From assembly GCA_022616475.1 (NCBI GenBank), contig JAKEEP010000240.1, positions 1 to 38,301 of the forward strand: a stretch of DNA of 38,301 nt, read 5' to 3'. The position numbers were made by a program, and so were the translations under genes. How positions within the stretch are numbered: position 1 is the stretch's first letter; every line of letters starts with the position of its first letter. This DNA comes from Phycisphaerales bacterium. Its GTDB lineage: Bacteria; Planctomycetota; Phycisphaerae; Phycisphaerales; SM1A02. The notes below the pieces were generated by a model. It was not told the origin of the DNA and did not search any database. It saw only the letters and a program-made list of their open reading frames with translations. Of this stretch, positions 1,499 through 30,057 are shown piece after piece.

Positions 1499-1507
1499 TG
1501 TGTGATC

Positions 1508-1537: not shown

Positions 1538-1684
1538 CTTGTTCGCTTTCCCGAACGGCAGAACGCATCGGGCGCCAGGCATGGGACATCAGGGTGCGGG
1601 GTTCACGGTCGCTGCGGCGACACCCTGCGCCTCGATGTGTGATGCCTGGCGTTTCTTGTCATTGTCCTGAAAGGAATCACCGAC

Positions 1685-2908
1685 ATGTCCATCCGAGCGA
1701 TCGTCGTCCTGCCCGTGCTCATGGTTTCCACTCTGCTCTGGGGCTGCAATGGCCCGACCAAGGAGGGAATAAAGGCTCGCAGCGAGGCCGCACAACGCAT
1801 GAACTTCGTCAGCGCTCAGATCCACTTCGATCAAGCGCGACAAGCCTTCAACACGGGCCAGTTCGACCGTGCCATTCGTGAAATCACCTACGCGATTCAA
1901 GTCAATCCCAAGTCGGCCGAATACGACGTGCTGAAGGGCCGCATCTACCTTGAGACCCACAAGCTGGAAGCCGCGATCGAGTCCTTCAACAACGCGCTGA
2001 CCAAAGACGCCAAGCTCGCTGAAGCGCATTATTACTCCGGAATCGTGTATCAGCGCTGGTCCAACGATGAGAAGGCCTACGAAAGCTATTCCAAGGCCCA
2101 CGAGATCGAGCCCGCGAACGCTCAATACATGCTGGCGTCGGCCGAGTCGCTGATCACGCTGGGCAAGATTGATGAGGCGTGGGAAATGACCGAATTGAAG
2201 CTCAAGTACTTCGAGCACAACGCCGCGCTGCGCCAGCTTCAAGGTCAGATTGCCCTGTTGCAGGGGGACCCGGCCCGGGCCGCCGAGTTGCTTGGTCAGG
2301 CCAGATTGCTGAATCCCGACGACGACTTGTTGCTGGAGGAGTTGATGTGGGCGCAATTTGCCGGCCAGAAGTACGGCGCCTGTCACGAGTCGGCGAAGCA
2401 GTTGCAGGGCCGCCTGAAGGAGGAGCGTCCGGATTTGTTTCATCTTGAGGCGCGCTGCCTGGCCTTGATGAACCGGGGCCCCGAAGCTCGCGAGCACTAC
2501 CTGAAGCTCTCGCGCCTGCGGCCGGCCGATCCGACCGTGTGGTCGGAGCTTGGCGCGCTCACCTGGGACCTTGGCGATTATCGCGGGCTCTTGGAGTGCA
2601 GCACGCGGCTGATCTCGCTGGCTCCCGATCGTCACGAGGGATACATGCTGCGTGGGATCTACGAGCGTCATCAGGGCAAGAGCGACGACGCCCGGAAGTA
2701 CTTTGAGCTGGCCTCGCAACGGGCATCCGATACTGCCCTGCCGCACATGCTCCTGGGGCAATTGATGGAAGAGGCCGGCGATCGATCCGGGGCAGCGGTG
2801 GCCTATAACAAGGCGCTCAGTGCGGAGCCCGACAGCGACCAAGCCCGCGACCTTTTGAGCCGATTGAATGGGGTGGCGGCTGTACCCACGAATGCGCCCG
2901 CGAATTGA
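1685..2908 (+). CDS. TPR-repeat lipoprotein (407 aa)
   Basis: Predicted outer- or inner-membrane lipoprotein: the first 20 residues form a signal peptide ending in a lipobox-like LLWGC, with Cys21 as the acylated residue. The rest is a helical repeat protein with many tetratricopeptide units, for example FNTGQFDRAIREITYAIQVN, AAIESFNNALTKDAKLAEAH and later copies through the C-terminus (SGAAVAYNKALSAEPDSDQA). Such proteins act as assembly scaffolds; in pilus and secretion systems PilF/PilW-type TPR lipoproteins help the secretin to multimerise. Its place directly after a secretin gene fits that role, but this is inference from position. The start is supported by AAGGA at 1671-1675, nine bases before the ATG. 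The stop overlaps a TTG that could open the next frame, but the next gene more likely starts at 2995. Confidence 0.85.
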   Translation: MSIRAIVVLPVLMVSTLLWGCNGPTKEGIKARSEAAQRMNFVSAQIHFDQARQAFNTGQFDRAIREITYAIQVNPKSAEYDVLKGRIYLETHKLEAAIESFNNALTKDAKLAEAHYYSGIVYQRWSNDEKAYESYSKAHEIEPANAQYMLASAESLITLGKIDEAWEMTELKLKYFEHNAALRQLQGQIALLQGDPARAAELLGQARLLNPDDDLLLEELMWAQFAGQKYGACHESAKQLQGRLKEERPDLFHLEARCLALMNRGPEAREHYLKLSRLRPADPTVWSELGALTWDLGDYRGLLECSTRLISLAPDRHEGYMLRGIYERHQGKSDDARKYFELASQRASDTALPHMLLGQLMEEAGDRSGAAVAYNKALSAEPDSDQARDLLSRLNGVAAVPTNAPAN

Positions 2909-2918
2909 CCGATGCGGC

Positions 2919-2945
2919 GGCAGACGGGCTTGAAGCCCGTCTGCC
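2919..2945. repeat. 27-bp palindromic repeat (GGCAGACGGGCTT family)
   Basis: A perfect palindrome with 13-bp arms around a single central G (GGCAGACGGGCTT / AAGCCCGTCTGCC). It lies between the TPR lipoprotein stop and the probable kinase start at 2995. A degenerate copy occurs at 37332-37358, so this is a dispersed element rather than a site private to this gene. Confidence 0.8.
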
Positions 2946-2994
2946 CGCGGGGGGCCAAAGCAAGCGCGCAGTCTGGCAGATCCAAGGAGTGATC

Positions 2995-4473
2995 GTGCAG
3001 GCGGGAAAGATCGCGAGCTTGATACTGGTGCTGCTCGTCACGGCGGTGGCGACGCTCCTGCGTGTCTTTGCTCTGTGGGCTTGGGAATTGGACGCCGCGC
3101 CGGCCACGACTCGTGTTTGGATGTTTGCCGCCATCGTTGGGGCCGTCTCAGCCACGGTCTTGATTCCGATGGGCGGAATCCTTGATCGGTCGATCACCAA
3201 ACTTCGCAAGCAGATCGAGAACGCCGCGACCAGCAGTCAACCCATCATCCTGGATGGGCTGAGCTGGTTGCAGCCCATCAGCCGCGCGTTCATTGGAGCG
3301 GTCGATCAGTTCCAGCAGCGCGAGCGAGCCTTGCGCAATCAGCTGGGCGATTTGGAAATCCGGCACCGCGTTTCCGAGGCCGAGCGACGCCAGGTCGAGG
3401 CGGTGCTGCACGCACTGCGCGACGCGGTCGTCGTGACCGACGCGTTCAATGAAGTGGTGATGGCGAATCAGACCGCCGCCGCCGTGCTGGGATTCGACCT
3501 CAAAGCAGCTCTTCACAAGCCCATCGACGACGTCATTCACGATCAGGCCCTGCGCCAGTTGATTCGCGACACCCGCGATACCGCGAACTTCACCGATACG
3601 CGCCACGTCGAGCAAGCCGTGAGCGGCGGCAAGCCGGCCGACGGCGGCACCAGTGAGTCGCGGGTGTTCGACATCACGCTCTCGTGCGTGGAGAACCACA
3701 AGCACGAGGTGGGCGGAGTGGTGACGATTCTTCATGACTTGACCAGAGAGCGCGAAATCTCGCAGATGAAGTCTGATTTCGTGTCCAAGGCCAGCCACGA
3801 ATTGCGCACGCCGCTCAGTTCGATTCGCGCCTATGTCGAGATGCTGGTGGATGGCGAGGCTACCGACGAGGCGAGCCGCGCCGAATGCTACCGGATCATG
3901 CAGAACGAGACCGAGCGACTGGGGCGGCTGATCGACAATATGTTGAACATCAGCCGCATCGAGGCCGGGATCGTGCAGATCGATCGCGAGAATGTGGACA
4001 TGAAGGGGCTGGTGAAGCGAGCGCTGCACACGCTGGAGCCGCAGGCCAAGGAAAAGAAAATGGCGCTGCACACCAGGCTCGCGGCGATCGACCTTTGCGT
4101 CGAGGGCGATGCCGACATGCTCTATCAGGTGGTGTTGAATTTGGTGAGCAATGGGGTCAAGTACACGCCTGAAGGCGGTCGGGTGACGATCGCTGCCGAC
4201 TCCGACAACTTGACGCGCAGCGTCTTGGTGACGGTTTCGGACACCGGCTTGGGCATTCCGCCAGATGCATTGCCCAAGCTGTTTGACAAGTTCTATCGAG
4301 TGGAGAACTACAAGCGCGTGGCCAAGGGCACGGGGTTGGGGCTCAGCTTGTGCAAGCACATTGTCGAGACGGTCCACCACGGTCAAATCGGCGTGGAGAG
4401 CAAGCTGGGAATGGGTTCGAAGTTCTGGTTTTCGATTCCGATGCGGTATGCGGGATCGAAAGCCGCCGCTTAG
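2995..4473 (+). CDS. Membrane PAS-type sensor histidine kinase
   Basis: Sensor kinase of a two-component system. Two N-terminal hydrophobic segments (about residues 5-25 and 40-60) enclose only a short periplasmic loop, so sensing is probably in the membrane or through the PAS domain that follows (about 130-255). Next come HisKA with phosphoacceptor His268 in SHELRTPLSS and the HATPase domain with the N box (NLVSNGVKYTPEGG), G1 (DTGLGIP) and G2 (GTGLGLSL). All catalytic motifs are intact. The frame is open upstream to a TTG at 2905, but that stretch is occupied by a perfect palindromic repeat; the GTG at 2995 has AAGGAG at 2984-2989, so it is the better start. A response regulator gene follows 98 bases downstream and is the obvious partner. 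Confidence 0.9.
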   Translation: MQAGKIASLILVLLVTAVATLLRVFALWAWELDAAPATTRVWMFAAIVGAVSATVLIPMGGILDRSITKLRKQIENAATSSQPIILDGLSWLQPISRAFIGAVDQFQQRERALRNQLGDLEIRHRVSEAERRQVEAVLHALRDAVVVTDAFNEVVMANQTAAAVLGFDLKAALHKPIDDVIHDQALRQLIRDTRDTANFTDTRHVEQAVSGGKPADGGTSESRVFDITLSCVENHKHEVGGVVTILHDLTREREISQMKSDFVSKASHELRTPLSSIRAYVEMLVDGEATDEASRAECYRIMQNETERLGRLIDNMLNISRIEAGIVQIDRENVDMKGLVKRALHTLEPQAKEKKMALHTRLAAIDLCVEGDADMLYQVVLNLVSNGVKYTPEGGRVTIAADSDNLTRSVLVTVSDTGLGIPPDALPKLFDKFYRVENYKRVAKGTGLGLSLCKHIVETVHHGQIGVESKLGMGSKFWFSIPMRYAGSKAAA

Positions 4474-4493
4474 AGGGATCTCCGGACGGCCAC

Positions 4494-4517
4494 TTCGGGT
4501 TTTGGTCAAAACCCGAA
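4494..4517. repeat. Perfect inverted repeat between kinase and regulator genes
   Basis: TTCGGGTTTTG and its exact complement CAAAACCCGAA are separated by two bases, in the 98-base gap between the kinase and regulator genes. It is followed by ATAGGGGG rather than a T-run, so it looks more like an intergenic palindromic element, mRNA-stability hairpin or attenuator than a classic terminator. Confidence 0.7.
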
Positions 4518-4571
4518 ATAGGGGGTTCACGTGTGATCGAGGTCGCCGCGGCGACAACGCGAGTGTTAGCG

Positions 4572-5033
4572 ATGATGAAGTTCGAGTCACAACCCGATGC
4601 TGCCAGCCAAAGTGCCAGCCCGACCAGTCGGCAGCGCATTTTGGTCGTCGATGATGAAGCGCACATCGTTCAAGTGCTTTCGCTCAAACTGCGCAACGCC
4701 GGGTACGACGTCCTGACCGCCATCGATGGCGAGGAAGGCTTTGAGCTGGCTGTTCAACATCGGCCCAACTTGATCATCACTGATTTTCAGATGCCATACA
4801 TGACCGGGCTCGAGCTTTGCCGCGAGCTCGCCGCCAATCCCGAGACGGCCGGGATTCCGGTGGTGATCTTGACCGCGCGGGGATATGCGCTTGATCCGGA
4901 GGATCTGACGATCGGCAATATCAAAAACGTCTTGAGCAAGCCCTTCAGTCCGCGCGCGATCATGGAATTGATCCAGCGGCTGCTGCAGAGCCAGCCTGGA
5001 GCACAAGCAGGCAATCGTTCGGAGGTGGCGTGA
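4572..5033 (+). CDS. Response regulator (single receiver domain)
   Basis: A stand-alone CheY-like receiver of about 153 residues with no output domain. Key residues are present: the acidic pair in ILVVDDEAHI, phosphoacceptor Asp71 in IITDFQMPYMTG, the Thr in VVILTARG and the Lys in VLSKPFSP. The first 20 or so residues before the receiver are a polar, probably disordered linker. Two adjacent ATG codons (4572, 4575) are possible starts; neither has a strong ribosome binding site. The gene sits between the sensor kinase and an HD-GYP gene whose GTG start overlaps this stop codon (GTGA), which indicates translational coupling. The likely flow is kinase to this regulator to the HD-GYP protein, but a direct interaction is inference. 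Confidence 0.88.
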   Translation: MMKFESQPDAASQSASPTSRQRILVVDDEAHIVQVLSLKLRNAGYDVLTAIDGEEGFELAVQHRPNLIITDFQMPYMTGLELCRELAANPETAGIPVVILTARGYALDPEDLTIGNIKNVLSKPFSPRAIMELIQRLLQSQPGAQAGNRSEVA

Positions 5034-6697
5034 ACACCGGGGATACACAACGCGAGTTGATTCAGTCGGCGATCAGTGGACACTCCGCCTTGCGGCCGGC
5101 CCTGCGCCAAGTCGGGATCGTGCTCATTGCGTGCGCTGAATCGGGCGAGTTGTTGGCCAAGGCGCCGCAGGGGGAAGATTGGCTGGCCGATCTGCTTTGT
5201 GCATCGAACATCTTTCGTTCGCTGCTGCAGAGCCTCGCTCCCGGTTGGTCGGGGGAATCCGAGCCTCGAGAGGTTGAACCGATTCCGGGACTCTGGTTGG
5301 TTCCGATGCCGCTGCTGCATCGCCGGCGCCGCGCCGGATACGCGATCGCCCTCATTCCGACCAAGGAGTTTCTGCATGCCGAGCAGCTTGCCGCGATGTG
5401 CCAGGCTTCGCAGGCCGACTTGGAGTTGAGCCGGCTCACGCTCATGAAACTGAGTTTGCCCGGCCCTTCCGACGTGCCTCGACTGGCAACGCTCGTGCGA
5501 ATGGCGCATGAAGACCGCATGATGCTGGCTTCCAACGAACAGGCGATCGAGAGCGTTGGCAAACAGCTGGCCGAGTCGTACGAAGAGATGAACCTGCTCT
5601 ACACGATCATCCAATCGATGACAGTTCAGGAGCGGCCGGAGCGGTTCGTCGCGCTGGCGTGCAAGGAGTTGCTCGCCACCCTTCCGTATGCCTGGATCGG
5701 CATTCAACTTCTGGATGACCGGCAGCGGCTCAAGGCCCTGAGCGGGCGCCTCATCATTGCCGGCGACCCCGGCCACTCGCCGGCGGTTCTGCGCAACGCC
5801 ACCAGAAATCTCGGCGCGCACATCCAACATGACAAAACCACTGTTCTGGAGCCCGGATCCAATCCCGATCATTTGCGATTCGCCGTGCTCGGCAAGACCG
5901 TTCTGGTGCAGCCGGTGAGCAGCGACACCAACGTCATCGGGCTGCTGATCGCCGGCGACAAGCGCGGGCCCGACACGGCGGCCTCGTCGGTTGACATGAA
6001 ATTGCTGGCCGCGACCGCCACGCACATGGCCATCTTCCTTGAGAACGCCGCGCTCTACGAAGACCTCAACGCCATGTTCCTGGGCACGCTTGAAGCGCTG
6101 ACGGCTTCGATCGACGCCAAAGACCGCTACACCTGCGGTCACTCCCGGCGCGTCGCGCTGCTGACGGCGCAACTCGGACAGGCCATCGGACTCGACGAGC
6201 ACACCGTGGGGCGCGTGCACATTGCGGGCCTGGTTCACGATGTGGGCAAGATCGGCGTGCCCGAAGCGGTGCTGCTGAAGCCGGGCAAATTGAGCCCGAA
6301 GGAGTTCGCTTGGATTCGCAAGCATCCTGAGATTGGCTACCGGATTCTCAAAGACATTCCGCAGCTCACCGACATTCTGCCCGGCGTACTGCATCACCAC
6401 GAGCGATGGGATGGGGGCGGATATCCCCAAGGGCTTGCCGGTGAGGGCATTCCCCTGGTGGCGCGGCTGATTGCACTGGCCGATTCCTTTGACGCGATGA
6501 GTTCGACGCGGACCTACCGCTCAGCGCTCTCGCGCAGCCAGGTCCTCGATGAGATCGATCGATGCGTCGGCACTCAATTTGATCCGGTGCTGGCCAAAGC
6601 CTTTGTGGAGCTTGATTTCTCGCAGTTCGATCAGCTTGTGCGTCAGCATCGTGAAACGGAGCGTGCGCTTCCAGGAGCCAGGGGGGAAGCCGCTTGA
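5030..6697 (+). CDS. GAF/HD-GYP domain c-di-GMP phosphodiesterase
   Basis: Predicted cytoplasmic enzyme that hydrolyses cyclic di-GMP. The first 170 residues have no domain I recognise and end in a helical, coiled-coil-like linker; a GAF domain covers about 195-345; the HD-GYP domain covers about 355-540. The catalytic signatures are complete: the HD pair at His403-Asp404 in HDVGKIGVP, then HHHERWDGGGYP, which carries the GYP motif, and LADSFDAMSS. The enzyme should therefore be active. GGAGG at 5021-5025 precedes the GTG start, which overlaps the response regulator stop by four bases. HD-GYP proteins commonly control motility, pili and biofilm. Location inside a secretion/pilus cluster suggests that local c-di-GMP controls the machine. 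Confidence 0.92.
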   Translation: MNTGDTQRELIQSAISGHSALRPALRQVGIVLIACAESGELLAKAPQGEDWLADLLCASNIFRSLLQSLAPGWSGESEPREVEPIPGLWLVPMPLLHRRRRAGYAIALIPTKEFLHAEQLAAMCQASQADLELSRLTLMKLSLPGPSDVPRLATLVRMAHEDRMMLASNEQAIESVGKQLAESYEEMNLLYTIIQSMTVQERPERFVALACKELLATLPYAWIGIQLLDDRQRLKALSGRLIIAGDPGHSPAVLRNATRNLGAHIQHDKTTVLEPGSNPDHLRFAVLGKTVLVQPVSSDTNVIGLLIAGDKRGPDTAASSVDMKLLAATATHMAIFLENAALYEDLNAMFLGTLEALTASIDAKDRYTCGHSRRVALLTAQLGQAIGLDEHTVGRVHIAGLVHDVGKIGVPEAVLLKPGKLSPKEFAWIRKHPEIGYRILKDIPQLTDILPGVLHHHERWDGGGYPQGLAGEGIPLVARLIALADSFDAMSSTRTYRSALSRSQVLDEIDRCVGTQFDPVLAKAFVELDFSQFDQLVRQHRETERALPGARGEAA

Positions 6698-6722
6698 AAC
6701 ACCCAGACCAGAGTGGATCGAG

Positions 6723-7058
6723 ATGAAACTCAGCTACGAAGATCACAATACCGTCACCGTGCTGACCATGAGCGGCGAGCTGACCGCCGATCAGAGCGAC
6801 GCCTTTCGCCGGGCCTGTCAGGAGCGATTGAATGCAGGGATTCGCGATGTCGTCCTGGATATGGAATACCTCACGCTGATCGATTCAGCCGGGCTTGAGC
6901 TGTTGTTGTGGCTGGTCGATGAGGTCGCCGATCGCAACGGACAGGTTCGCCTCGTGAATCCGGATGAGACGGTTCGGAAGATTTTTCAGCTCACTCGGTT
7001 GGATAAGCGCTTCAACGTTCACACAAGCATCGAATCGGCGGCAAAGAGCCTGCGCTGA
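6723..7058 (+). CDS. STAS-domain anti-sigma factor antagonist-like protein
   Basis: A 111-residue single-domain STAS protein of the SpoIIAA/RsbV type. These small proteins bind an anti-sigma factor or serine kinase and are switched by phosphorylation of a serine. The expected site is present as Ser55 in LTLIDSAGLELL, and the domain is complete, from the N-terminal strands (TVLTMSGELTA) to the last helix. The ATG at 6723 is chosen because it gives the normal family length; the frame is open further upstream inside the HD-GYP gene. It begins 25 bases after the HD-GYP stop, in the same direction. No RsbW/SpoIIAB-type kinase or PP2C phosphatase is visible here, so its partner is unknown. It may act with the two-component and c-di-GMP genes before it. 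Confidence 0.88.
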   Translation: MKLSYEDHNTVTVLTMSGELTADQSDAFRRACQERLNAGIRDVVLDMEYLTLIDSAGLELLLWLVDEVADRNGQVRLVNPDETVRKIFQLTRLDKRFNVHTSIESAAKSLR

Positions 7059-7088
7059 CCCACACTCTCGACTTGACCCAGCATCATC

Positions 7089-8822
7089 ATGATTCGCGCT
7101 GCTGAAACAACCTCGACCTTCGATACCACCACTCGCATGCCGCTTGGCGAGATGCTGGTGGCGCGGGGCATCATCAATCACGACCAGCTCAAGCAGGCTC
7201 TGGAGCACCAGGCCCATCGCGGGCACAAGAAGCTTCTGGGCGAGGTCTTGGTCGAGCTCAATTTCGCCACCGATCAGCAGGTTCTGGAAGTGCTGGCCGA
7301 GGGATATGGCGTCCCCTTTGCCACCCAAACCGCGCGCATCGCCGATCCCAAGGTCGTCGAACTCCTTCCCCGCGATTTTGTGGAAGACCACAAAGTGTTG
7401 CCACTCTTCCTGGTGCGGGGCGTGTTCACCGTCGCTGTTTCCGAACCGACCAACCTATTCCTGATCGAGGAAATCCAGCGGCTCACCGGGTATCAGGTTC
7501 AGATCGTCGCCGTGACCGCCTCGGAAATCGACGCTTCGCTCCGCGCCTACCTTCCCGCGGCGAACGTCTTCGTCATTGATGACATCTACGAAGACATCGA
7601 TGACGCCGATTTCAGCGTGATTGAAAGGACGGTCACCGAGCTTTCAGACCTCGAAGAGGTCGCCGGCCACAGCCCGGTGGTGAAGCTGGTCAACTACCTG
7701 ATCTACTCGGCGGTGCAGGACGGCGCCTCTGACATCCACATCGAGCCGGGCGATCACTACCTCCGCGTTCGGTACCGGATCGATGGCCGCCTGTTCGAGA
7801 AGCTCTCGCCGCCGCATCAGATGGCGCCCGCGCTCACCAGCCGCATCAAGATCATGAGCAATCTCGATATCTCCGAGCGGCGGGTCCCGCAGGACGGCGA
7901 CATCCACGTGCGCATGGAAGGCCGGCCCATCGACTTGCGCGTCTCGACCATGCCCGGCAAGTACGGCGAGAAAGTCGCCATCCGCATCATCGACAACCGC
8001 ACCAGCCACGTCTCGCTCGACAAACTTGGCTTCTCGGCGCACATGCTCGAAACCTGGAAAACGGTCATCAACAATCCAAACGGGGTTGTGCTGGTGACCG
8101 GCCCCACCGGCTCAGGCAAGACCACCACGCTCTATTCGGCGCTGAACCTGATCAACACCGAAGATCTGAACATTTCGACCGTCGAAGACCCGATTGAATC
8201 GAGCATGCCGGGCGTCAATCAGTTTCAGGTGAATGAGAAGGCCGGCTTTACCTTCTCCAATGCTCTGCGCGCGCTGTTGCGCCAGGATCCCGACATCATG
8301 ATGGTGGGCGAGGTTCGTGACGCCGAAACCGCCGCGATCGTCACCCAGGCCGCGCTCACCGGGCACCTGGTGTTCTCGACGCTGCACACCAATGATGCGC
8401 CCAGCGCGGTCACGCGGCTGGTGAATATCGGCATCGAGCCATACCTGGTGGCGGCCACGCTTCGGGGCGTTCTGGCCCAGCGATTGGTTCGCAAGATTTG
8501 CCCGCACTGCAAAGAGGCGTACGAGCCCGACCCGGTCATCAGGAAGGCGGTTGAGGATGCATGCGGGCCCTTCGAGTCGCTGTATCGCGGCCCCGGTTGC
8601 AGCCGATGCCGCGGCACTGGTTTTGCCGGCCGAATCGGCATCTTCGAACTGCTCATTCCCGACGAAGGGATCCTGGCCGCGATCGCCAATGGCGCACACT
8701 TGCAAGAACTGCGCGAGATTCTGGGCAAGTCGCCTTTCACCACGCTCCGCGCCGACGGCATGGAGAAGGTTCGCGGCGGGCTTACCACCGCCGAAGAGGT
8801 GTTTTACGTCACCAGCATGTAA
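7089..8822 (+). CDS. Type II secretion / type IV pilus assembly ATPase (GspE/PilB family)
   Basis: Cytoplasmic hexameric ATPase that powers pseudopilus or pilus assembly. The 577 residues contain an N-terminal MshEN/GspE-N domain (about 15-150, opening with MPLGEMLVARGIIN), followed by the catalytic domain. Visible motifs are Walker A GPTGSGKTTT at 338-347 with Lys344, the Asp box and Walker B (LRQDPDIMMVGEVRDAETA), the His box (TGHLVFSTLHTND) and a four-cysteine zinc site (CPHC and CSRC). MshEN domains are known to bind c-di-GMP, which makes the adjoining HD-GYP gene notable. The ATG at 7089 lacks a clear ribosome binding site; the Met at 7137 is an alternative start. GspF/PilC follows after 9 bases. 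GspE and PilB cannot be separated by sequence alone. Confidence 0.94.
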   Translation: MIRAAETTSTFDTTTRMPLGEMLVARGIINHDQLKQALEHQAHRGHKKLLGEVLVELNFATDQQVLEVLAEGYGVPFATQTARIADPKVVELLPRDFVEDHKVLPLFLVRGVFTVAVSEPTNLFLIEEIQRLTGYQVQIVAVTASEIDASLRAYLPAANVFVIDDIYEDIDDADFSVIERTVTELSDLEEVAGHSPVVKLVNYLIYSAVQDGASDIHIEPGDHYLRVRYRIDGRLFEKLSPPHQMAPALTSRIKIMSNLDISERRVPQDGDIHVRMEGRPIDLRVSTMPGKYGEKVAIRIIDNRTSHVSLDKLGFSAHMLETWKTVINNPNGVVLVTGPTGSGKTTTLYSALNLINTEDLNISTVEDPIESSMPGVNQFQVNEKAGFTFSNALRALLRQDPDIMMVGEVRDAETAAIVTQAALTGHLVFSTLHTNDAPSAVTRLVNIGIEPYLVAATLRGVLAQRLVRKICPHCKEAYEPDPVIRKAVEDACGPFESLYRGPGCSRCRGTGFAGRIGIFELLIPDEGILAAIANGAHLQELREILGKSPFTTLRADGMEKVRGGLTTAEEVFYVTSM

Positions 8823-8831
8823 GGACACCGC

Positions 8832-10076
8832 ATGCCAGCACAGAGCACATACGCCTTTCGAGCGCGCGACTCCAACGGCTCTGTCGTTAGCGGCTCGTTG
8901 GTCGCGACCAGCGCCGAAGAGGTCGGGGCCCGGCTTCGCGCTGAGGGCAAGTACGTTCTCTCGGTGCAGGATAACGCGCTGCGAGTCACGATGGCCCTCG
9001 ATGAGAAGCAGATTCGGCGCAATGAAGCTGCCAAGCGGGTCAAGCGCGATGACGTTATTTCGTTCTGCCAGCAGCTTTCAGTGATGCTCCAAACCGGCGT
9101 GCCGCTCTCGGAGGGCCTCGACGCCATGTGCCAGCAGGTCGCCCAAAAGGAGTTTCGCGATGTGCTGGTGGTGTTGCGAGACGACATCTACGGCGGCGAG
9201 AAATTCTCGGTCGCCATGGCCAAGTGGCCTCGCGTCTTCCCCAGCATGATCGTCAGCCTCATGAAAGCCTCGGAAGCCTCCGGCACGATGTCGATGATGC
9301 TCGGCCGGATCGCCAAGTACCTGTCCAAGGAACGCCGCACCGCCAAGCAGATCAAGGGAGCGATGGGCTACCCGGCTTTCATGATGATCACAGGCTTGAC
9401 CATGACTGTCTTCCTGATGGCGTTTGTTCTTCCAAAATTCGCCAAGATCTACGAGATGCGCTCGGCCACGCTGCCAACCCCGACTCGATTGTTGCTGAGC
9501 ATTAGTGAATTCATCACCACGCAATACCTGGTCTATCTGCCGATCGCGGCGACTCTGGCCATGGCGGCGATGATCTTTCTCCGGCGGCCGGCGGGCCGTC
9601 GCATGTGCGACTGGCTCCGGCTCCAGTGCCCGGTCATCCGGAAAATGTACGGTCAGTTGTACATCACTCGCACGGCACGCACCATGGCCACGCTGCTGGC
9701 CTCGGGCGTCAACCTGCTCGACATCATCGCCATCTGCCGCGGCGTGACCAACAATCACTACTACGACATTCTCTGGCGCAAGATGGAGCAGGGCGTCCGC
9801 GACGGCAAGCAGATCAGCGACGCCGTGTTCGAATCGTCGCTCATTCCGCGGAGCATCGCGTCGATGATCAACTCCGGCGAACGTTCGGGCAAGCTCGCCG
9901 ACGTCATGGAATCAATCGCCGAGTTCAGCGAAGAGGAGCTTGATGCGGCGGTCAGGCAAGTCACGTCGTACATCGAGCCAATCATGATCATCTTCATGGG
10001 CCTGGTGGTCGGCGGGGTAGCCATGGCTCTTCTGCTGCCGATTTTCAGCATGGGCAGCGTCATGAGCGGCGCGTAA
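8832..10076 (+). CDS. Type II secretion / type IV pilus inner-membrane platform protein (GspF/PilC family)
   Basis: Polytopic inner-membrane protein that couples the assembly ATPase to pilin polymerisation. It is 414 residues long, a normal family length. The N-terminus has the typical short domain (YAFRARDSNGSVVSGSL), followed by two homologous cytoplasmic T2SSF domains (about 70-195 and 275-395). Membrane segments are near 170-200, 220-245 and at the C-terminus (IMIIFMGLVVGGVAMALLLP). AAGGA overlaps the GspE stop codon and lies six bases before the ATG. It is the last gene of the plus-strand cluster; no major pseudopilin (GspG/PilA) or prepilin peptidase is present in the window. Confidence 0.93.
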   Translation: MPAQSTYAFRARDSNGSVVSGSLVATSAEEVGARLRAEGKYVLSVQDNALRVTMALDEKQIRRNEAAKRVKRDDVISFCQQLSVMLQTGVPLSEGLDAMCQQVAQKEFRDVLVVLRDDIYGGEKFSVAMAKWPRVFPSMIVSLMKASEASGTMSMMLGRIAKYLSKERRTAKQIKGAMGYPAFMMITGLTMTVFLMAFVLPKFAKIYEMRSATLPTPTRLLLSISEFITTQYLVYLPIAATLAMAAMIFLRRPAGRRMCDWLRLQCPVIRKMYGQLYITRTARTMATLLASGVNLLDIIAICRGVTNNHYYDILWRKMEQGVRDGKQISDAVFESSLIPRSIASMINSGERSGKLADVMESIAEFSEEELDAAVRQVTSYIEPIMIIFMGLVVGGVAMALLLPIFSMGSVMSGA

Positions 10077-10436: not shown

Positions 10437-11654
10437 TCAGAAACCCATGCCGAGTTGAAAGAGAACTGCGTGATCCGACTCCCGCTGACCCGTGGGATCA
10501 TCGATATCGCTGAACTGATATGCGACCTTCAACACCGTCGTCGGGGCGACCCAATAGTTCAATCCAACGGTGTAGCGCTGCTGATCCTGGGGCTGGGGAG
10601 CATCGCTGGATTGATTCAGAAAATCCCACCGAAACACGCCTTCAAGATCGCGCATGATTGATCCCAAATGCGTCGGGCGGTACGCCACCTGCGCATATCC
10701 CCCGGTTCGATCGTTGTTGAACGGGCCGGCGCCCAAGTCGATCAGGCCATCGAAGTCGGCGAAGTCGAACTCGGCGCGAGCATCCAGCCGTCCCTTCAGC
10801 CAATCGTCCTCGGTTAGATAGTTCACCGCGAACGAGTGCAGCAGCACGTTGGTGTCATCAATTGTGCCGCTGTCGGGCGCGACATCGGCGAACTGAATGC
10901 CGTACACAAATTCAAGATTCGCGACGGGCAGCCAGCCAACCTGCGCGCCGATCGCCTTGCTGTCGTTGACGTCCGAGAAATTGCGAAAATCGAATTGGCC
11001 CGCGCTGGGTCCCGAGGTTTCAAGCGCCGGCCCGTTGGCGATGTACGCCGAATACGTCACCTTGGTCGATCCAATCGGCGCTGCGCCGCGAAGCTCGAAT
11101 CCGAGGCTCGACTCGGGAATAATCTGGCCCCGGCCGGTCGCGAAGATCGGCTTGTCGGGCAGCTTATTGATCGCGGCCGGGTACAACTGCTCCTGAAAGT
11201 AGCTCAAGGGCGTCAAGAACAGGCCGCCTCGCAAGGTCAGGTTATCGCTGAGCACGAGCGAAAGATTTGCCCACTGCAGCTCGACGTCGCTGTCATCGTC
11301 GGCGGCACGCAGCTCAAACGATGTTCCGGCCAGCAGCTGATCCGACAGCTTCCACAGCAGCACCGGGTTCAATCGAGCCGTAAAGGTTGATTCATCGTGC
11401 TCGCGCGCGGTGAAGTTCACCGACGCCCGGCCGGTCACCAGGAAACGCGTGTACCCGGGCTCAAGAGCATTCATTTGGCGCTTCAGTTCTTCCAATTCCT
11501 GCTGAATCTGTTCAAGGTGGAGTTGGAGCTCCTCATCCGAAGCCGGCGCTGCATCGTCCTGCGCCGTGGCCGATGACGACAAGCCCACAAACAGACCGGC
11601 GACCCCCCCGGCCCGCCCAAGCGCCGTGACAAGTTGTTTGGGGAGCCGCTTCAC
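10437..11654 (-). CDS. Outer-membrane porin-like beta-barrel protein
   Basis: Predicted outer-membrane protein of 405 residues. From the GTG at 11654 the product has a signal peptide ending about residue 30 (SSSATAQDD), a short coiled coil (LHLEQIQQELEELKRQ) like those of OprO/OprP- or DcaP-type porins, then alternating polar/hydrophobic strands to the end, closing with FQLGMGF and the C-terminal Phe expected of BAM substrates. The start is chosen because GTG overlaps the upstream gene stop (GTGA), giving translational coupling, and because it places the signal peptide at the N-terminus; the frame itself stays open further upstream. It lies between two cytochrome c genes. Whether it simply conducts anions or takes part in a redox complex is not decided by the sequence. 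Confidence 0.85.
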   Translation of the reverse strand: MKRLPKQLVTALGRAGGVAGLFVGLSSSATAQDDAAPASDEELQLHLEQIQQELEELKRQMNALEPGYTRFLVTGRASVNFTAREHDESTFTARLNPVLLWKLSDQLLAGTSFELRAADDDSDVELQWANLSLVLSDNLTLRGGLFLTPLSYFQEQLYPAAINKLPDKPIFATGRGQIIPESSLGFELRGAAPIGSTKVTYSAYIANGPALETSGPSAGQFDFRNFSDVNDSKAIGAQVGWLPVANLEFVYGIQFADVAPDSGTIDDTNVLLHSFAVNYLTEDDWLKGRLDARAEFDFADFDGLIDLGAGPFNNDRTGGYAQVAYRPTHLGSIMRDLEGVFRWDFLNQSSDAPQPQDQQRYTVGLNYWVAPTTVLKVAYQFSDIDDPTGQRESDHAVLFQLGMGF

Positions 11655-12610
11655 TTCACACGTGCAGCGCCGCTGGATCGGATGCGCGCGAAACGATTGC
11701 ACGGCATATCGGGCGCCGGCGCGCCTCGGCCGTACGGATTCTCGGCCGGCCCAAAGGCCTGAAGCCACATCTTTGAATTCGCGCCTTGCCCAACTTCGTA
11801 GGCCAGCACCGGCGATGCTTCAGCATGGCCGAAGTGGCGGAGCGCCTGCGCCAGAGATGCAGACAAGTCCCGGAACGCCGATCGCAATGAAACAAGATCG
11901 CTTGACGAATCAGAGACGGCCGCCTGAGCCTTCTGAATCGCCTCGACGTCGGATTTCCAGGCGGCGCGCCGGGCCTCATCAAGCGCGCTCTGGGCTTGTG
12001 CTAGTTCGCTGAGTGTTGAAGCGAACGAGCCGCAGCAGTTCTGCGCCGTGTTCAGATCGGATCTCACCAGCGCCCCGTGCAAATCCAAATAGCGGTGGAC
12101 CACAGACGACAACGCCTCGCCGCATGCCGGCGGCGCTTCAAATTCCGGCTCCTTGGCGGGCGGCCGCGGCGCCAGGCTTCGCATGTAGTTGAGCACATGC
12201 CAGCGCTCGGCGTCGGTCAGCAACTCTTTGTGGCCAGGCATGTCGCCGCGGCCTTCAGTGATCTTCCAGAACATCGCCCCGTCGCTCTGATCCCACAAGC
12301 TCGGCTCAGTCAAATTCGTCGGGCGCGGTTCCAGATCGATGCCCGCCTTGCCATCGCCTCGGCCCGCCGCGCCATGGCATGATCGACACTCGCGAACATA
12401 CAGCTGTTGACCCAGCGTCAGCGACTTTTCATCGGCCGCGACCGGGTTCTTTTTCTGCGCGGCTCGCGCCGGCACGATCCAGGGCTTAACCGCGCCGCCG
12501 CCTCCCTCCCCATAAGCCGCGCTCATGCTCATCCACACAAGTGATCCGCCCGCCAACGTCGTCACGATCACGCATGTCCGAGTCGCGGCAACGGCTGAGA
12601 TCGTTCTCAT
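11651..12610 (-). CDS. Cytochrome c fused to a DUF3347-like domain
   Basis: Exported protein of about 319 residues. An N-terminal hydrophobic segment (about 10-32) is followed by a class I cytochrome c domain with heme motif CRSCH at 75-79, the downstream pattern GRGDGKAGIDLEPRPTNL, a probable axial Met124 in RGDMPGHKELLTD and the helix WHVLNYMRSL. The C-terminal half (about 165-300) resembles DUF3347: a helical stretch (VVHRYLDLHGALVRSDL) and the ending ENPYGRGAPAPDMPC, close to the usual NPY-G-M-CG pattern. DUF3347 is often found in copper-handling proteins, so metal binding is possible. The ATG at 12610 has GGAG six bases upstream; in-frame ATGs at 12613 and 12637 are alternatives. The next gene (porin) overlaps its stop by four bases. 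Confidence 0.82.
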   Translation of the reverse strand: MRTISAVAATRTCVIVTTLAGGSLVWMSMSAAYGEGGGGAVKPWIVPARAAQKKNPVAADEKSLTLGQQLYVRECRSCHGAAGRGDGKAGIDLEPRPTNLTEPSLWDQSDGAMFWKITEGRGDMPGHKELLTDAERWHVLNYMRSLAPRPPAKEPEFEAPPACGEALSSVVHRYLDLHGALVRSDLNTAQNCCGSFASTLSELAQAQSALDEARRAAWKSDVEAIQKAQAAVSDSSSDLVSLRSAFRDLSASLAQALRHFGHAEASPVLAYEVGQGANSKMWLQAFGPAENPYGRGAPAPDMPCNRFARIRSSGAARVK

Positions 12611-12848
12611 CATCGGCTCCAAGCAATCGGTCGCCATGGGCGCGCACCATCCCCCTACGACCTGTGCCGGCCGCAGAAAACCGCGTTCCAACACCGGCCG
12701 CTCGTCGCATCGAGCAACCTGTCGGGAAGATCAATTCACTATGTCCATCGCTTTTCACAGCCTTGCAAGGCGGAGATAATTTGTGTCTGCTAAGCACCAA
12801 CCGATCTGTCTCCACAATGCTGTTTTGGGCCGATGAGTGAACGATTCC

Positions 12849-13425: not shown

Positions 13426-14157
13426 TCAGCGGCGGCGCCTGCGCCCCATGATTCCAGCCAGGCCCAACAAAGCCAGCGCGCCGGGGGCCGGAATGAATTG
13501 GAAGTTGCCGGTAAAGTTGGCGATCTCGCCTGGCGAAAGATCGAACACCAGCCGAATCCCAAGCTGAGTGATGACCGTGCTGATTGGAGTGGCGGGAATG
13601 GCGGCCGAGTCGGAGTTGGTCACGCCATTAGCGCTAAGGGTGTAATCAGCGTTAAACAATGTCGCAAAATCAGAGCCGTTCACGGAGTACGTCCACATGG
13701 CAAGGTCGGCGCCGAACGCATCAGTTGTGCTGAGCGTGCCGTCCGAGGCCCCCGGATTCAGCGTCATGGCGGCATTGGCGGTATACGACAACGCCGTTGA
13801 GGGCCCAAGATCAAATGTGATCAAGATCGAGAACTGCAAGTTCGTTGCCAGATTGTTCGTGACGGTGAAGCCAGCTCCCAAGATGCCCGCGTCGTTGGCC
13901 GGGTCGTCCTGCGAGAGGAAGCTGTAGGTCAACGTCCAATCGGGCGACGGCGCGGGTACGGTGCCGCTGTAAAAGGTCAGCGTTGGGTCGATCGGCGAGC
14001 CGGCATCAGAGAATATCTGAGAGCCGCCCCCGCCAATGACATCAATGTCAAAATCGACAACGGTGCCAGCTTGAACTGGGATCGCCAGCAATCCACAACT
14101 TGCCGCGATCATCGCAACCCATACGGAGCGACGGATGCACCCTGAAAACCCAGGCAT
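13426..14157 (-). CDS. Exported protein with PEP-CTERM-like C-terminal tail (243 aa)
   Basis: Secreted or surface protein of unknown function. The N-terminus is a signal peptide (RRSVWVAMIAASCGLL to VQAGT), the middle is a Ser/Thr/Asp-rich all-beta region, and the C-terminus has the tripartite form of a PEP-CTERM sorting signal: a short Pro-containing motif (IPAPGAL), a hydrophobic helix (ALLGLAGIMG) and a basic cluster RRRRR. PAPG replaces the classic PEP. Such tails are known to be processed by exosortases, none of which is encoded in this window. The ATG at 14157 is preceded by GGAGGAGAAGG on the minus strand, so longer readings of the frame are not needed. It follows the multiheme cytochrome gene in the same direction, about 240 bases away. 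Confidence 0.82.
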   Translation of the reverse strand: MPGFSGCIRRSVWVAMIAASCGLLAIPVQAGTVVDFDIDVIGGGGSQIFSDAGSPIDPTLTFYSGTVPAPSPDWTLTYSFLSQDDPANDAGILGAGFTVTNNLATNLQFSILITFDLGPSTALSYTANAAMTLNPGASDGTLSTTDAFGADLAMWTYSVNGSDFATLFNADYTLSANGVTNSDSAAIPATPISTVITQLGIRLVFDLSPGEIANFTGNFQFIPAPGALALLGLAGIMGRRRRR

Positions 14158-14400
14158 ACCTTCTCCTCCTATAGTCCTCTCGTCTCCAGACCTCAAATCG
14201 AAGCACCAAGAAGTTGATGCTGCGTTCGCATCACCCCCAGTGTTTATGCGGACTATAACACACCCCATTCCCTCACGCAACTAATTTCTTGACGAATCGT
14301 CGCCTTGATTTGGAGGGCACCCAACATAGTCCGACCCTCCGACGGTAGTCACCAAAAGGCGGGAATCTTGGGGGCTTGGGTCGCAGGAATCGATCCGGCG

Positions 14401-16383
14401 TCAGCATGGTCCCCAATCCTCGACGACCCCCAAAAGATCGGTGATATTGACCAAACCATCGCCGTTTAGATCGCCCAGGCATGGCAGGGGCGGCGGCGGG
14501 TTGCACACACCCCAGTTGCCGATCACGCCCAGCAAATCGCTGACGTCAACTGTGCCGTCTTCATTGACGTCGGCTGCCTTATAGATCGGTACTTCAGCCA
14601 GGTCCATGAGGACTGGCGCGCTCTTGCCGTACTCCACCCACAGGTCGTACACGACTTGCCCTCGATTGTCGGTGGTGTTGGCGTCGCGCATAAACTCAAT
14701 GAACTCCCTGGAAGTGAGCTGGTAATACACCGCCACCACGGTCTTGGTCGTTCCCTCAGGCATGGCGTAGATCGTGTCGTCCCAGTTTTGCCCGTTCAGG
14801 TACGTCGCGCCCACCGAGGCCGTCTGGTTCTGCTGCGCGAGCACATTCGAAAACCCGGCCGGCGGGATGCGATTGTCCTTGAGGATCTTGTTGGCCAGGA
14901 TGAAGTGAAACGTCTCGCCCTCGGGGTGCCCGACCAGCGCGGCGTATTCGGCGCCATCGATGCCCAGGCGCATCTCATAAACTCGAGTGGTCAGAGGATC
15001 GAGTGTGGCGGTCTCGAAGTCGTAGGCCCCGTCCTCGAGAAGAATCTGATCGTTGCAATCCATGAACTTTATGTTGATCCAGATTCGCCGGCCGTCGGGG
15101 AAGCCGGTCGGAAGCTTGTGGCCGGTCTTGTTGAGCACGCGAACCTTGATGTCCTGGTTCTGGCGCGTCACAGTGAGGGTTGATGCCCGCTGAAGGAAGT
15201 CGGTATTGCGCACAACGGCGCCCGCGACCAATTCGTCGTCCAAGCCTGAATCCGGGTAATCAGGCAAGCCATCCTGATTGAAATCGACCGTCTGAATCGC
15301 ACTGAGCACCCAGGTGTTAGAGCCAACGAAGCTGTGCTGTGGAATGTCCGGCCGCTCAAAGAAGGGGCCCACAACACTGCAGCCAAACCCCTGCATATCA
15401 GGCATGTGGCAATCCTGGCACACCTTCATGATTCCGGTTGGATGGTTGCCGCCGAACAGGCCGTCATGGTCCACGCCAACGGAGCTGTAATAACTGTTCT
15501 TCCATTCGGAGTACGTGCGATGCAGCGGAAACATATCGCGCTGGTCTTGTGTGGGATGCGGCTGATCAAGGGCGCCTAGTGCATAGCTGCCATCGGGCTG
15601 CTTTGTCATCAGAGCGTTGCTCACGCCATGACAGTTCCAGCAAAATTCAGAGCTGCTGTGAAACGGTGAGTAGAGGATGTCTGGTTGCTGTCCCGGGGGC
15701 ACGGCGGGGTGAACGTTTAGGAGAGGATCGTCGGCGATGTCTGCGAACGGGCCACGGCGCGTGTCGGTTGGATCGACGACAAACCGGCTGTTGTTGCTTT
15801 CGGGGGCCAGCAGCCCGCTCGCTGCAAGATCGTTCAGAATGGCCTCGTCCTCCGACGGGCTGATTCCAGGTTTGTAGGCCGGGTCAACCAGCCGATGGCA
15901 GAAGTTACACTGCACGCCGTTCATGTCAGCGCTATCGAACGCTGTGCCGTCTGGTGGTGAGAAGTGGTCCGCGAGATAGGCGACCGGCACGTGGCAGCGA
16001 ATGCAATATTCGCCGGCGCCTGCCGCATCCTGATTGGCGATCGTCAACCCCGCGTAGAAGAGCGGATCGCGCGCCGACTGACCCATCATGCTGGTTTGCC
16101 ATGTTGTGAACGGATCATGCATGAAGAACGGATCGGTCCCGGTCTCGTAGTCGTGGCAAAAATTGCACTGATTTGCTTCCAGGATTGGCGTGAACTTCCC
16201 TGGCAAGCCCGCGCCCAGCGGCTGCGTGCCCGGTTGGAAGAAATCCTGGTTGGTCGTTGGCAGCGTGGTCGAACCGCCGCCCACTGCGTCTTCCTCACCG
16301 ATACACGCGACCCCCACGCCGACGGCGAACATCAAACGGACAACAGAATGGCGCTGCAACTTTGTGGCTCGGGCGGCAAACAT
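14401..16383 (-). CDS. Five-heme cytochrome c with C-terminal dockerin-like repeats
   Basis: Large exported multiheme cytochrome of 660 residues. Five CxxCH motifs lie at residues 73-77 (CNFCH), 127-131 (CIRCH), 159-163 (CNFCH), 248-252 (CWNCH) and 322-326 (CQDCH); additional His residues could give bis-His coordination. The second half (about 340-600) lacks heme motifs and looks beta-rich, with KTGHKLPTGFPDGRR as a notable conserved-looking patch. The last 55 residues hold two EF-hand-like dockerin repeats, DVNEDGTVDVSDLLGVIGNW and DLNGDGLVNITDLLGVVEDW. The N-terminus is hydrophobic (MFAVGVGVACIG) and serves as signal peptide; Cys27 could be lipidated but the lipobox is weak. The ATG at 16383 follows GAGGAG on the minus strand. 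Neighbours are PEP-CTERM-like genes. Electron donor and acceptor are unknown. Confidence 0.9.
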   Translation of the reverse strand: MFAARATKLQRHSVVRLMFAVGVGVACIGEEDAVGGGSTTLPTTNQDFFQPGTQPLGAGLPGKFTPILEANQCNFCHDYETGTDPFFMHDPFTTWQTSMMGQSARDPLFYAGLTIANQDAAGAGEYCIRCHVPVAYLADHFSPPDGTAFDSADMNGVQCNFCHRLVDPAYKPGISPSEDEAILNDLAASGLLAPESNNSRFVVDPTDTRRGPFADIADDPLLNVHPAVPPGQQPDILYSPFHSSSEFCWNCHGVSNALMTKQPDGSYALGALDQPHPTQDQRDMFPLHRTYSEWKNSYYSSVGVDHDGLFGGNHPTGIMKVCQDCHMPDMQGFGCSVVGPFFERPDIPQHSFVGSNTWVLSAIQTVDFNQDGLPDYPDSGLDDELVAGAVVRNTDFLQRASTLTVTRQNQDIKVRVLNKTGHKLPTGFPDGRRIWINIKFMDCNDQILLEDGAYDFETATLDPLTTRVYEMRLGIDGAEYAALVGHPEGETFHFILANKILKDNRIPPAGFSNVLAQQNQTASVGATYLNGQNWDDTIYAMPEGTTKTVVAVYYQLTSREFIEFMRDANTTDNRGQVVYDLWVEYGKSAPVLMDLAEVPIYKAADVNEDGTVDVSDLLGVIGNWGVCNPPPPLPCLGDLNGDGLVNITDLLGVVEDWGPC

Positions 16384-16434
16384 CCTCGCTTCTCCTCGCT
16401 CGCAGTTCCCAAAAACGACTTTCACTACGTAGAC

Positions 16435-16510: not shown

Positions 16511-17326
16511 TTATCGGCGGCGACGGCGGCCCGCGGTCAACGCGCCAAACAGTGCGAGGACCGACAATCCAGCCGGGCCAGGAACTGCCTCAACCTGAAA
16601 GATGCCCGTTACCGAAACCGAGTCAAGCCCCGACAAACTGAATTGGAGTCGCAACGCAATTTCGGCCAACACCGCGGGCCCAAGAATGGGCGCGAACGAA
16701 TCATTATTATTCGAGGCCGTCGGGGTTGTGAACGATGTCGGATGCGGCCAGAGGGTGGCCACCGCTTCGCTCGCCGGCGGACCGCCAGGCGGTGGAAGAC
16801 TGGGATCGATGAACGCTTGATAGATCGCGTCGCCGTTCGAACTCAAGATCGCATCAGGCGAGAACGGAAACGCCGTATTGCTCAGCGCTGCGCTCACCGA
16901 CCCATTCATGAACGATGCGGGCCCTACTGGTACCACCGGCAAATTCATATAGTTGGAGAAACTCTGTGTGACCGTCAGGTTGTTGGTAACCTGAATGTTG
17001 GCTACCACAAATGGATCTTCGTTGACGATGCAATCCCACTCCAAAGTCCACGCCGCGTTGACGATCTGGCCAATGTAGCGCCACCCGGTGTACGAGACGC
17101 CATCAACCACAAACGTGCCATACTGTGTCTCCTGCGTGGCGTGATCGTTGGGGTCGTAGTGATCGGCCCCGATCGCGTCGCCATCGGCATCCCAGGTCAT
17201 CATGAACGCCGGCATGCCGCCTGAGCCGTCATCTGCCAGCGCGCCGGACACCGCCAGACCCAATGCAGTCAATGCAGCCAAGCCCGCCGAGCGGAAACTA
17301 TTGACATTTCTCCAGATAGCAGCCAT
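16511..17326 (-). CDS. Exported protein with PEP-CTERM-like C-terminal tail (271 aa)
   Basis: Secreted or surface protein of unknown function. A signal peptide runs to about residue 32 (GLAALTALGLAVSGALAD). The body is beta-rich with many Asn, Thr and Asp (QVTNNLTVTQSFSNYMNLP). The C-terminus has a PEP-CTERM-like signal: VPGPAGL, a hydrophobic helix (SVLALFGALTAG) and RRRRR. The tail matches in design, though not in sequence, the one in the protein at 13426-14157; the two bodies also share the phrase TVTNNLAT/QVTNNLTV, hinting at a related fold. The ATG at 17326 is preceded by AGGAGGAAAAGAGG on the minus strand. It is the first gene upstream of the five-heme cytochrome on this strand, with a hairpin between them. 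Confidence 0.8.
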   Translation of the reverse strand: MAAIWRNVNSFRSAGLAALTALGLAVSGALADDGSGGMPAFMMTWDADGDAIGADHYDPNDHATQETQYGTFVVDGVSYTGWRYIGQIVNAAWTLEWDCIVNEDPFVVANIQVTNNLTVTQSFSNYMNLPVVPVGPASFMNGSVSAALSNTAFPFSPDAILSSNGDAIYQAFIDPSLPPPGGPPASEAVATLWPHPTSFTTPTASNNNDSFAPILGPAVLAEIALRLQFSLSGLDSVSVTGIFQVEAVPGPAGLSVLALFGALTAGRRRRR

Positions 17327-17417
17327 AGCCTCTTTTCCTCCTGAGGTCTCTCTGCTTCTCTGGAATGACTGGCCCACCTCAAGCGCTGCGTCGGCGCTCA
17401 ACCCCCCTTGATGTTGG

Positions 17418-28851: not shown

Positions 28852-30057
28852 ATGTCTTCAACTCGCATTCCGTTGACCCACCGTCTCAATCTCGCAATCA
28901 GCTTGAGCACCGCAACGATGTTGGCAAGCGTGTTGGTATCCGACGCAGGTTACGCACAGGTTCTGTACACCGTCGAAGAGTTGACGGCGTTCAACGGACC
29001 GGTCAACGAAGCGTATGACATCTCGCCCGATGGTCAGGCGGTCGGGCGCGTGCTCGATCCTTTCTTGGTTGCCAAGGCCACATCTTGGGAGCGGGGTGTC
29101 GTCACCAATCTGGGGACAAATGGCGAAGCGCGCGGAATCTCTTCCAACGGTCTTATTGCCGGATCAATCGGAAGCCTGGGTCAAATCTGGACCAATGGCG
29201 TGCCCACCGCTCTCAACGTCCTACCCAATCACATTGGCACCCGCGGTTGGGATGTGAACTCTGGCGGCCTTGTCGCTGGATGGTCCGTCAACAACGTTGG
29301 CGATCCGACAGCGGCAACCTGGCTGAACGGTGTTGTGACAGCGCTCGATGTGAACCACAGTTGGGCGTTCAGAATCAACGATGCCGGCCAGATCGTCGGA
29401 CGTCGGGATGTCTCAACCGGTCGCGAAGCAAGACTCTGGCACAACGGCACCGGCGTGACGCTCGAACACTTCGGCAACAACTACGCATCCGCCACGAACA
29501 TCACGCCGCGCGGCATCATCACCGGCGGAGCGTGCCAGCCCGTGGGGCCGCCCGGCGTCTGCCAGCCGCGCGAAGTGATATGGCTTGGGCCCGATCACGA
29601 TCTCCAAGTACTGCCCATGTTCCCCAGCGCGCTTCTGGAAGCGCTGTGGAACGCGAACGATCGAGGCGTGTTTGTGGGCGAGTACGCGTTTGACATCGAT
29701 GGCGCTACGCTTCGCGCCTTGATCTGGCGGTGGCCCGACTTTGAGCCGATCGATCTGAACACGCTTATCGCGCCCGAGTCGGGGTGGATTCTTCAGAGTG
29801 CGCAATCGATCAATCATGACGGCACGATCGCTGGCTATGGGATTCGTCCGGGGTTGAGCGGTCGGCGTGCGTTCCTGCTGCAGCCGATCAACACCGCCGA
29901 CGTCACGGATGACGCCGTGGTCAACGTGGCTGATTTGCTGGCGGTCATCAGCGCCTGGGGCCAGTGCGCCGATGCCATCCCGTGCCCGGCGGACTTGAGC
30001 GGCGATGGCATGGTCAACGTGGTTGATCTGCTTGAGCTCATCAGCCAGTGGGGGTGA
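28852..30057 (+). CDS. Extracellular HAF-repeat protein with dockerin-like C-terminus
   Basis: Exported protein of 401 residues. The signal peptide ends near residue 35 (SDAGYAQ). The body is made of HAF-type repeats in which a phrase like AxxWxNGVVTxL alternates with INxxGQIVG: ATSWERGVVTNLG, AATWLNGVVTALD, INDAGQIVGRRDV, INHDGTIAGYG. These repeats occur in predicted extracellular beta-propeller-like proteins of unknown function. The C-terminal 60 residues carry two dockerin-like repeats: a degenerate DVTDDAVVNVADLLAVISAW and an intact DLSGDGMVNVVDLLELISQW. The same tail design is found on the five-heme cytochrome at 14401-16383. A GGAG lies 11 bases before the ATG, rather far. The gene is divergent from the PhyH gene and followed by proS. 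Confidence 0.85.
   Translation: MSSTRIPLTHRLNLAISLSTATMLASVLVSDAGYAQVLYTVEELTAFNGPVNEAYDISPDGQAVGRVLDPFLVAKATSWERGVVTNLGTNGEARGISSNGLIAGSIGSLGQIWTNGVPTALNVLPNHIGTRGWDVNSGGLVAGWSVNNVGDPTAATWLNGVVTALDVNHSWAFRINDAGQIVGRRDVSTGREARLWHNGTGVTLEHFGNNYASATNITPRGIITGGACQPVGPPGVCQPREVIWLGPDHDLQVLPMFPSALLEALWNANDRGVFVGEYAFDIDGATLRALIWRWPDFEPIDLNTLIAPESGWILQSAQSINHDGTIAGYGIRPGLSGRRAFLLQPINTADVTDDAVVNVADLLAVISAWGQCADAIPCPADLSGDGMVNVVDLLELISQWG

Follow-up and report, generated by a model that had tools for sequence, protein, structure and literature searches.

Dockerins that occur without cohesins are usually noted and then passed over. Those of cellulosomes (Pfam Dockerin_1; structure 2y3n_B) resemble the module described here: two F-hand calcium loops form a twofold repeat that is mostly C-terminal and carries lineage-specific, recognition-like positions. 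Cellulosomal specificity resides at positions 10, 11, 17, 18, and 22, and calcium at positions 1, 3, 5, 9, and 12 (PMC5748583). Non-cellulosomal dockerin proteins also occur in Planctomycetota, where a cohesin/dockerin "planctosome" has been proposed for a freshwater family (PMC6461901). As far as the accessible portions of two reports on ANME and syntrophic SRB extend (PMC9012536, PMC10553843), dockerins lie there amid multiheme cytochromes of extracellular electron transfer, ANME genomes hold cohesin scaffoldin-like proteins, and a pentaheme cytochrome-dockerin fusion is not described. NCBIfam NF041540, "GC-type dockerin domain-anchored protein", likewise defines a C-terminal dockerin-like anchor domain; a literature search on GC-type dockerin returned no papers. 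On the heme side, Geobacter ExtKL, Gsu2801, and cable-bacteria proteins make up the pentaheme cytochrome (PHC) family, which has an immunoglobulin-like domain, resembles c552, and is related to an archaeal cytochrome nanowire (PMC11976967).

The window analyzed here, a 38,301-nucleotide stretch from a Phycisphaerales genome, encodes a secreted pentaheme cytochrome ending in a dockerin-like tail. Neither the dockerin fold nor the concept of a dockerin serving as anchor domain (NF041540) is new. Within the mainly open-access literature compared here, the new elements are a cytochrome as cargo, a cohesin that is apparently lacking, a coordinated lineage code, and tag replacement. Unlike cellulosomal dockerins, these tails come without any cohesin or scaffoldin match, show two short helices in their model, sit on many unrelated protein types, and mostly end after a W-G that follows position 19. 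Whereas the planctosome model comprises cohesins and peptidases, here no cohesin was found in the source genome, and cytochromes join many other enzymes as cargo.

Architecture of the pentaheme cytochrome

The cytochrome ORF occupies 14401-16383 on the minus strand, starts with ATG, and encodes 660 aa; an alternative GTG start extends it to 14401-16425, which is also open. Its parts are as follows.

14401..16383, minus: secreted pentaheme cytochrome with C-terminal dockerin-like tail (sequence, Pfam, orthologue alignment)
16282..16383, minus: signal-peptide-like N-terminus (sequence; a hydrophobic stretch in most aligned orthologues too)
16153..16167, minus: heme motif 1, CNFCH (C73-H77), invariant in 30-31 orthologues
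15991..16005, minus: heme motif 2, CIRCH (C127-H131), invariant in orthologues
15895..15909, minus: heme motif 3, CNFCH (C159-H163), invariant in orthologues
15628..15642, minus: heme motif 4, CWNCH (C248-H252), invariant in orthologues
15406..15420, minus: heme motif 5, CQDCH (C322-H326), invariant in orthologues
14584..15186, minus: beta-rich C-terminal domain, residues ~400-600, with conserved GHKLPTGxPxGRR (model; local similarity to ExtKL NF040886)
14512..14571, minus: dockerin F-hand repeat 1 (D605-W624), positions 10/14/17 = V/L/I
14413..14472, minus: dockerin F-hand repeat 2 (D638-W657), positions 10/14/17 = I/L/V

Shuffling the protein 20,000 times yielded a mean of 0.009 CxxCH motifs and a maximum of 2, against the five observed. 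Together with a Dockerin_1 match above cut-off, this confirms the initial annotation, which had placed five CxxCH motifs and two calcium-loop repeats in one protein.

An AlphaFold model built on 30 orthologues (pLDDT 80, pTM 0.84; pLDDT mostly >90 in the beta-rich domain) matched one solved structure well, the pentaheme c552 of Thermochromatium tepidum (Foldseek, 5ze8, E 2e-13, TMt 0.62). A sequence search of the PDB with the cytochrome body alone gave no match; profile and fold searches did reach 5ze8. The NCBIfam ExtKL model NF040886 scores 24.5-24.6 bits in the cytochrome region, below its equivalog cut-off of 250. With five CxxCH in one chain and, in the model, a c552/ExtKL-like fold plus a C-terminal beta domain, the protein is PHC-like, and the ExtKL name is not used. 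Like ExtKL, Gsu2801, T. tepidum c552, and the cable-bacteria sPHC/lPHC, it has five CxxCH and a beta-rich (immunoglobulin-like) domain after the heme part, but it carries an extra C-terminal dockerin module and is a stand-alone gene without an ext cluster or conserved neighborhood. Besides the CxxCH histidines, H242, H276, H350, and H422 are invariant in the orthologue alignment and H225 is nearly so, making these five residues candidate distal heme ligands by sequence. The protein would act in electron transfer and might be catalytic.

Predicted fold of the C-terminal tail

The two F-hand repeats, DVNEDGTVDVSDLLGVIGNWG and DLNGDGLVNITDLLGVVEDWG, stop 2 aa short of the stop codon, and the protein ends in ...GDLNGDGLVNITDLLGVVEDWGPC. 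Pfam Dockerin_1 (PF00404) scores the tail at 25.9 bits (gathering cut-off 22.9). Both loops have D or N at positions 1, 3, 5, 9, and 12, conservative choices aside, and the tail is expected to bind calcium. A model derived from 45 tail copies of the source genome (pLDDT 91) contains two short helices, and its best structural matches are dockerins, led by the type II dockerin 2y3n_B (TM 0.78-0.80, rmsd 1.6 Å, prob 1.00), with an E value of 0.014 on this short chain. At the sequence level too, 2y3n_B is matched by a profile of the tails (6.9e-9).

A second gene of the window carries the same tail class.

28852..30057, plus: HAF-repeat secreted protein, second tail-bearing gene of the window
29890..30054, plus: its dockerin-like tail, ending WG-stop

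This tail scores 26.0 bits with Dockerin_1 and 23.8 bits with TIGR02913 (cut-off 22.65) and is 51% identical to the cytochrome tail, which bears out the earlier assignment of one tail type to both proteins. The window tails differ in sequence type from NF041540: the HAF-repeat protein reaches 19.5 bits against a cut-off of 29, and the cytochrome is not among the matches.

Conservation of the fusion

Almost every genome in the planctomycete family of the window (Phycisphaerae-like) has the cytochrome; 40 of 61 relatives match the cytochrome query, a few of them through the tail only. Named relatives that hold it are Phycisphaerae, Phycisphaerales, and other Planctomycetota MAGs. Each of the 31 aligned family copies has five hemes and the tail, with the second repeat ending a few residues from the stop codon in nearly all, and a contig search found five CxxCH in 78 of 79 Planctomycetota relatives. 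The source genome holds a second copy (G000:C259) at 50% identity. The fusion, previously called unusual, is thus a conserved feature of the family. Across the 79 relatives, no neighbor of the window cytochrome is conserved beside its orthologues; since window and relatives share no common neighborhood, the cytochrome appears to have no operon partner.

Tail-bearing proteins across the genome

A search of the 3.66-Mb source genome for other tail-bearing proteins, as initially suggested, returned ~150 places similar to the cytochrome tail and 78 Pfam Dockerin_1 matches. We surveyed 60 regions covering 538 kb, selected for holding tails, and found the paired F-hand tail on 67 ORFs. In 62 of these, 21-30 aa separate the start of the second repeat from the stop codon and the end is fixed, either WG-stop or WG plus a few residues. 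The paired pattern occurs in 66 reading frames, compared with 1 in reversed frames and 0 in five shuffles. Of the 67 tail-bearing frames, 59 contain a signal-peptide-like stretch.

The bodies are unrelated and include di-haem oxidoreductase (DHOR), CCP_MauG-like, sugar dehydrogenase, haloperoxidase-like, esterase, subtilase, and FG-GAP proteins, with proteases among the cargo; at least two CxxCH motifs are found in 4 of the 67. Two more redox proteins with the same tail are a CCP_MauG/lactonase-like protein (L067:6655-9678) and a DHOR protein (L082:5801-7594). In two proteins, one hydrolase-like and one polysaccharide-lyase-like (L113:1601-3832, L071:17766-18857), the module is N-terminal, directly after the signal peptide, and in one other it is internal. 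The tail is therefore a module and more than an end signal.

A lineage code at F-hand positions 10, 14, and 17

We compared 142 tails with a W end from six genomes. Tail identity is 0.57-0.71 within a genome and 0.40-0.60 between genomes. The genome signal is located at F-hand positions 10, 14, and 17 of both repeats (mutual information z 29-43 vs label shuffles), whereas calcium-loop positions 1, 5, and 12 are shared by the six genomes and the variable positions 4, 7, and 19 show hardly any genome signal or none. The codes at 10-14-17 are I/V-L-I in the source genome, G-A-L in G014, T-L-F in G011, G-G-L in G026 (position 14 mixed with A), G-A-L in G002, and F-L-L in G018. In 49 source-genome tails picked by Pfam alone, repeat 1 has I/V at position 10 in 46, L at position 14 in all 49, and I/V at position 17 in 48; the code thus holds free of the bias of searching with the window tail. 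Positions 10 and 17 overlap with the cellulosomal specificity positions, which is suggestive only.

Orthologous cytochromes follow the code of their own genome: the true assignment of cytochrome tails to genomes ranks 2 of 720 permutations, with the source-genome row represented by the paralogue L080 rather than the window copy. The permutation that equals or betters it swaps G026 and G002, which have nearly identical codes. The V/L/I and I/L/V of the window cytochrome also match the source-genome code.

Recent copying or gene conversion of tails was considered and rejected. The synonymous codon match (observed/expected 0.494/0.476, 0.458/0.428, 0.384/0.374, and 0.599/0.576) shows at most a slight excess, so the likeness of the tails does not stem from recent copying.

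Tag replacement on orthologous cytochromes

In 49 of 79 Planctomycetota relatives, the cytochrome bears the plain F-hand pair at a distance of 21-29 aa from the stop codon (in L033, a TGA within the frame, close to the end of the tail, reflects read-through by the search only). Most of the remaining relatives carry other twofold tails or a different C-terminal domain. The other twofold tails comprise the GC type (NF041540, above cut-off on L261, L262, and L279), the 'YANCDGSTTPPVLNVNDF' type, and the 'PWPDCG' type, the last closing the cytochromes of three genomes (L284, L285, L287) as 'LNISDVxxxLNALF...PWPDCGxDPTPDFLRCYxYSCP'. In the 3.6-Mb genome of L279 (G101), the tail type of that cytochrome, 'YANCDGSTTPPVLNVNDFxCFLNxFAAGDPYANCDG...GCP', which has an altered calcium loop, occurs at least 150 times; this type has 0 copies in the source genome (G000) and 7 in another. 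L294 carries a different C-terminal domain seen only twice in its genome, so the rule that the cytochrome bears the mass tag is not universal.

In tail-poor genomes (Dockerin_1 matches: 1 in G008, 5 in G047, 3 in G051), the cytochrome ends straight after the beta domain. G031 is an exception, bearing tails yet holding a distant cytochrome copy without one. That the tail serves only as a fold cap, a possibility the initial annotation had raised, is made unlikely by these tail-less cytochromes together with the two proteins in which the module follows the signal peptide. The cytochrome acts as a fixed marker, a conserved body fitted with whichever tag the lineage uses in bulk, which suggests that the tag determines location rather than forming part of the enzyme.

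Proposed docking to a shared receptor and alternative explanations

The reading we lean toward makes the tail a general-purpose docking tag: a single receptor, common to the tagged proteins and evolving with them, would bind it without being a recognizable cohesin. We infer both the receptor and the binding. A receptor or sorting system yet to be discovered probably exists, since the tag occurs at >100 places, comes in lineage-own versions, and has no recognizable cohesin to meet. The cytochrome would be exported by Sec and its calcium-loaded module captured by the receptor at the cell surface, in the periplasm, or in the matrix (surface or matrix most likely), as one cargo among many. The receptor would read the stripe formed by positions 10, 14, and 17 in either repeat, and because well over 60 proteins would share it, receptor and tags would change together, lineage by lineage. 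Reading of the code by the receptor, location of the tail, and electron transfer to outside acceptors are likewise what we infer. Extended to the proteome of planctomycetes of this group, this becomes a tentative, possible picture in which a dockerin-fold tag for a single non-cohesin receptor sits on dozens to hundreds of secreted proteins of unrelated kinds, pentaheme cytochromes among them, the 10/14/17 code turns over between genera, and 60-150 tags change with the receptor. If true, docking would explain how >100 secreted proteins find their place, some of them redox proteins that might feed outside acceptors, and it supplies a testable recognition code.

Two explanations compete most closely with this one: a cohesin that escaped detection, and a founder effect in which packing locks the positions. 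A true cohesin-dockerin system, with the cytochrome docked as in a cellulosome or planctosome and the cohesin anchor or adaptor unassembled or too diverged, seems unlikely to us. It accords with the predicted dockerin fold, the planctosome proposal (PMC6461901), and a MAG that is 88% complete and so might lack the one receptor gene; yet the cohesin scaffold initially proposed as partner has 0 matches in that MAG, both with PF00963 and with a planctomycete cohesin profile (A2) built from cohesins of six relatives. Among relatives, PF00963 matches 10 of 101 genomes (7 above cut-off) and leaves 91 without a match, and A2 matches 7 of 41 and leaves 34 without, although most family genomes use the tag. 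Given so wide an absence, a missing contig is unlikely as a general answer. Several of the matching proteins (L059, L062, and L063, in few relatives only) combine HYR-like parts with canonical F-hands at the C-terminal end, which would suit a cohesin system, but the cellulosomal specificity positions 10, 11, 17, 18, and 22 (PMC5748583) are only partly those found here. The earlier suggestion of a shared, cohesin-like partner or sorting pathway therefore stands in part: the common tail class and the genome-specific code speak indirectly for a shared partner or pathway, and its cohesin-like nature is what fell away. Where the absence of a cohesin or other binder had been named as counting against docking, the cohesin half of that absence is what we find.

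Under a lineage founder effect, which we also consider improbable, the module would have proliferated within each lineage as a stabilizing cap or calcium-dependent fold helper with a packing-locked core and no common partner. Hydrophobic or small residues predominate at positions 10, 14, and 17, and their sizes vary together (G goes with A/G, and I/V with L and I), as packing could produce; an ancient spread with a locked core would likewise leave a genome-wide signature. However, silent sites carry little trace of recent spread, the cytochrome body stands without a tail in tail-poor genomes, orthologous cytochromes bear the local tag type, and a common capping need is not expected because the tagged bodies are unrelated. 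Rather less credible still is a cleaved C-terminal sorting signal, removed at the surface like PEP-CTERM or T9SS signals. The strict C-terminal place and fixed end in 62 of 67 proteins would fit, as would the PEP-CTERM-like proteins and exosortases of the source genome, but the N-terminal and internal modules would be forbidden to a strictly C-terminal signal, and the tail lacks a hydrophobic helix and basic end. PEP_CTERM gave no match on the cytochrome, whose tail ends in ...EDWGPC, so it does not qualify as a PEP-CTERM substrate. The T9SS marker SprA had no match in 37 genomes, nor in the control genomes.

Neighboring genes in the window

The cytochrome is flanked on the same strand, with gaps of ~120 bases, by two PEP-CTERM-like paralogues (13426-14280 and 16511-17401, minus) that share 28% identity over 185 aa (E 7e-11). 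With exosortases present in the source genome, two sorting tags thus lie side by side. A cytochrome c domain is fused to DUF3347 at 11654-12694 (minus). A type II secretion/type IV pilus-like run occupies 14-10076 and is composed of a secretin, a TPR protein, a PAS histidine kinase, an HD-GYP protein, a GspE-like ATPase with MshEN, and GspF.
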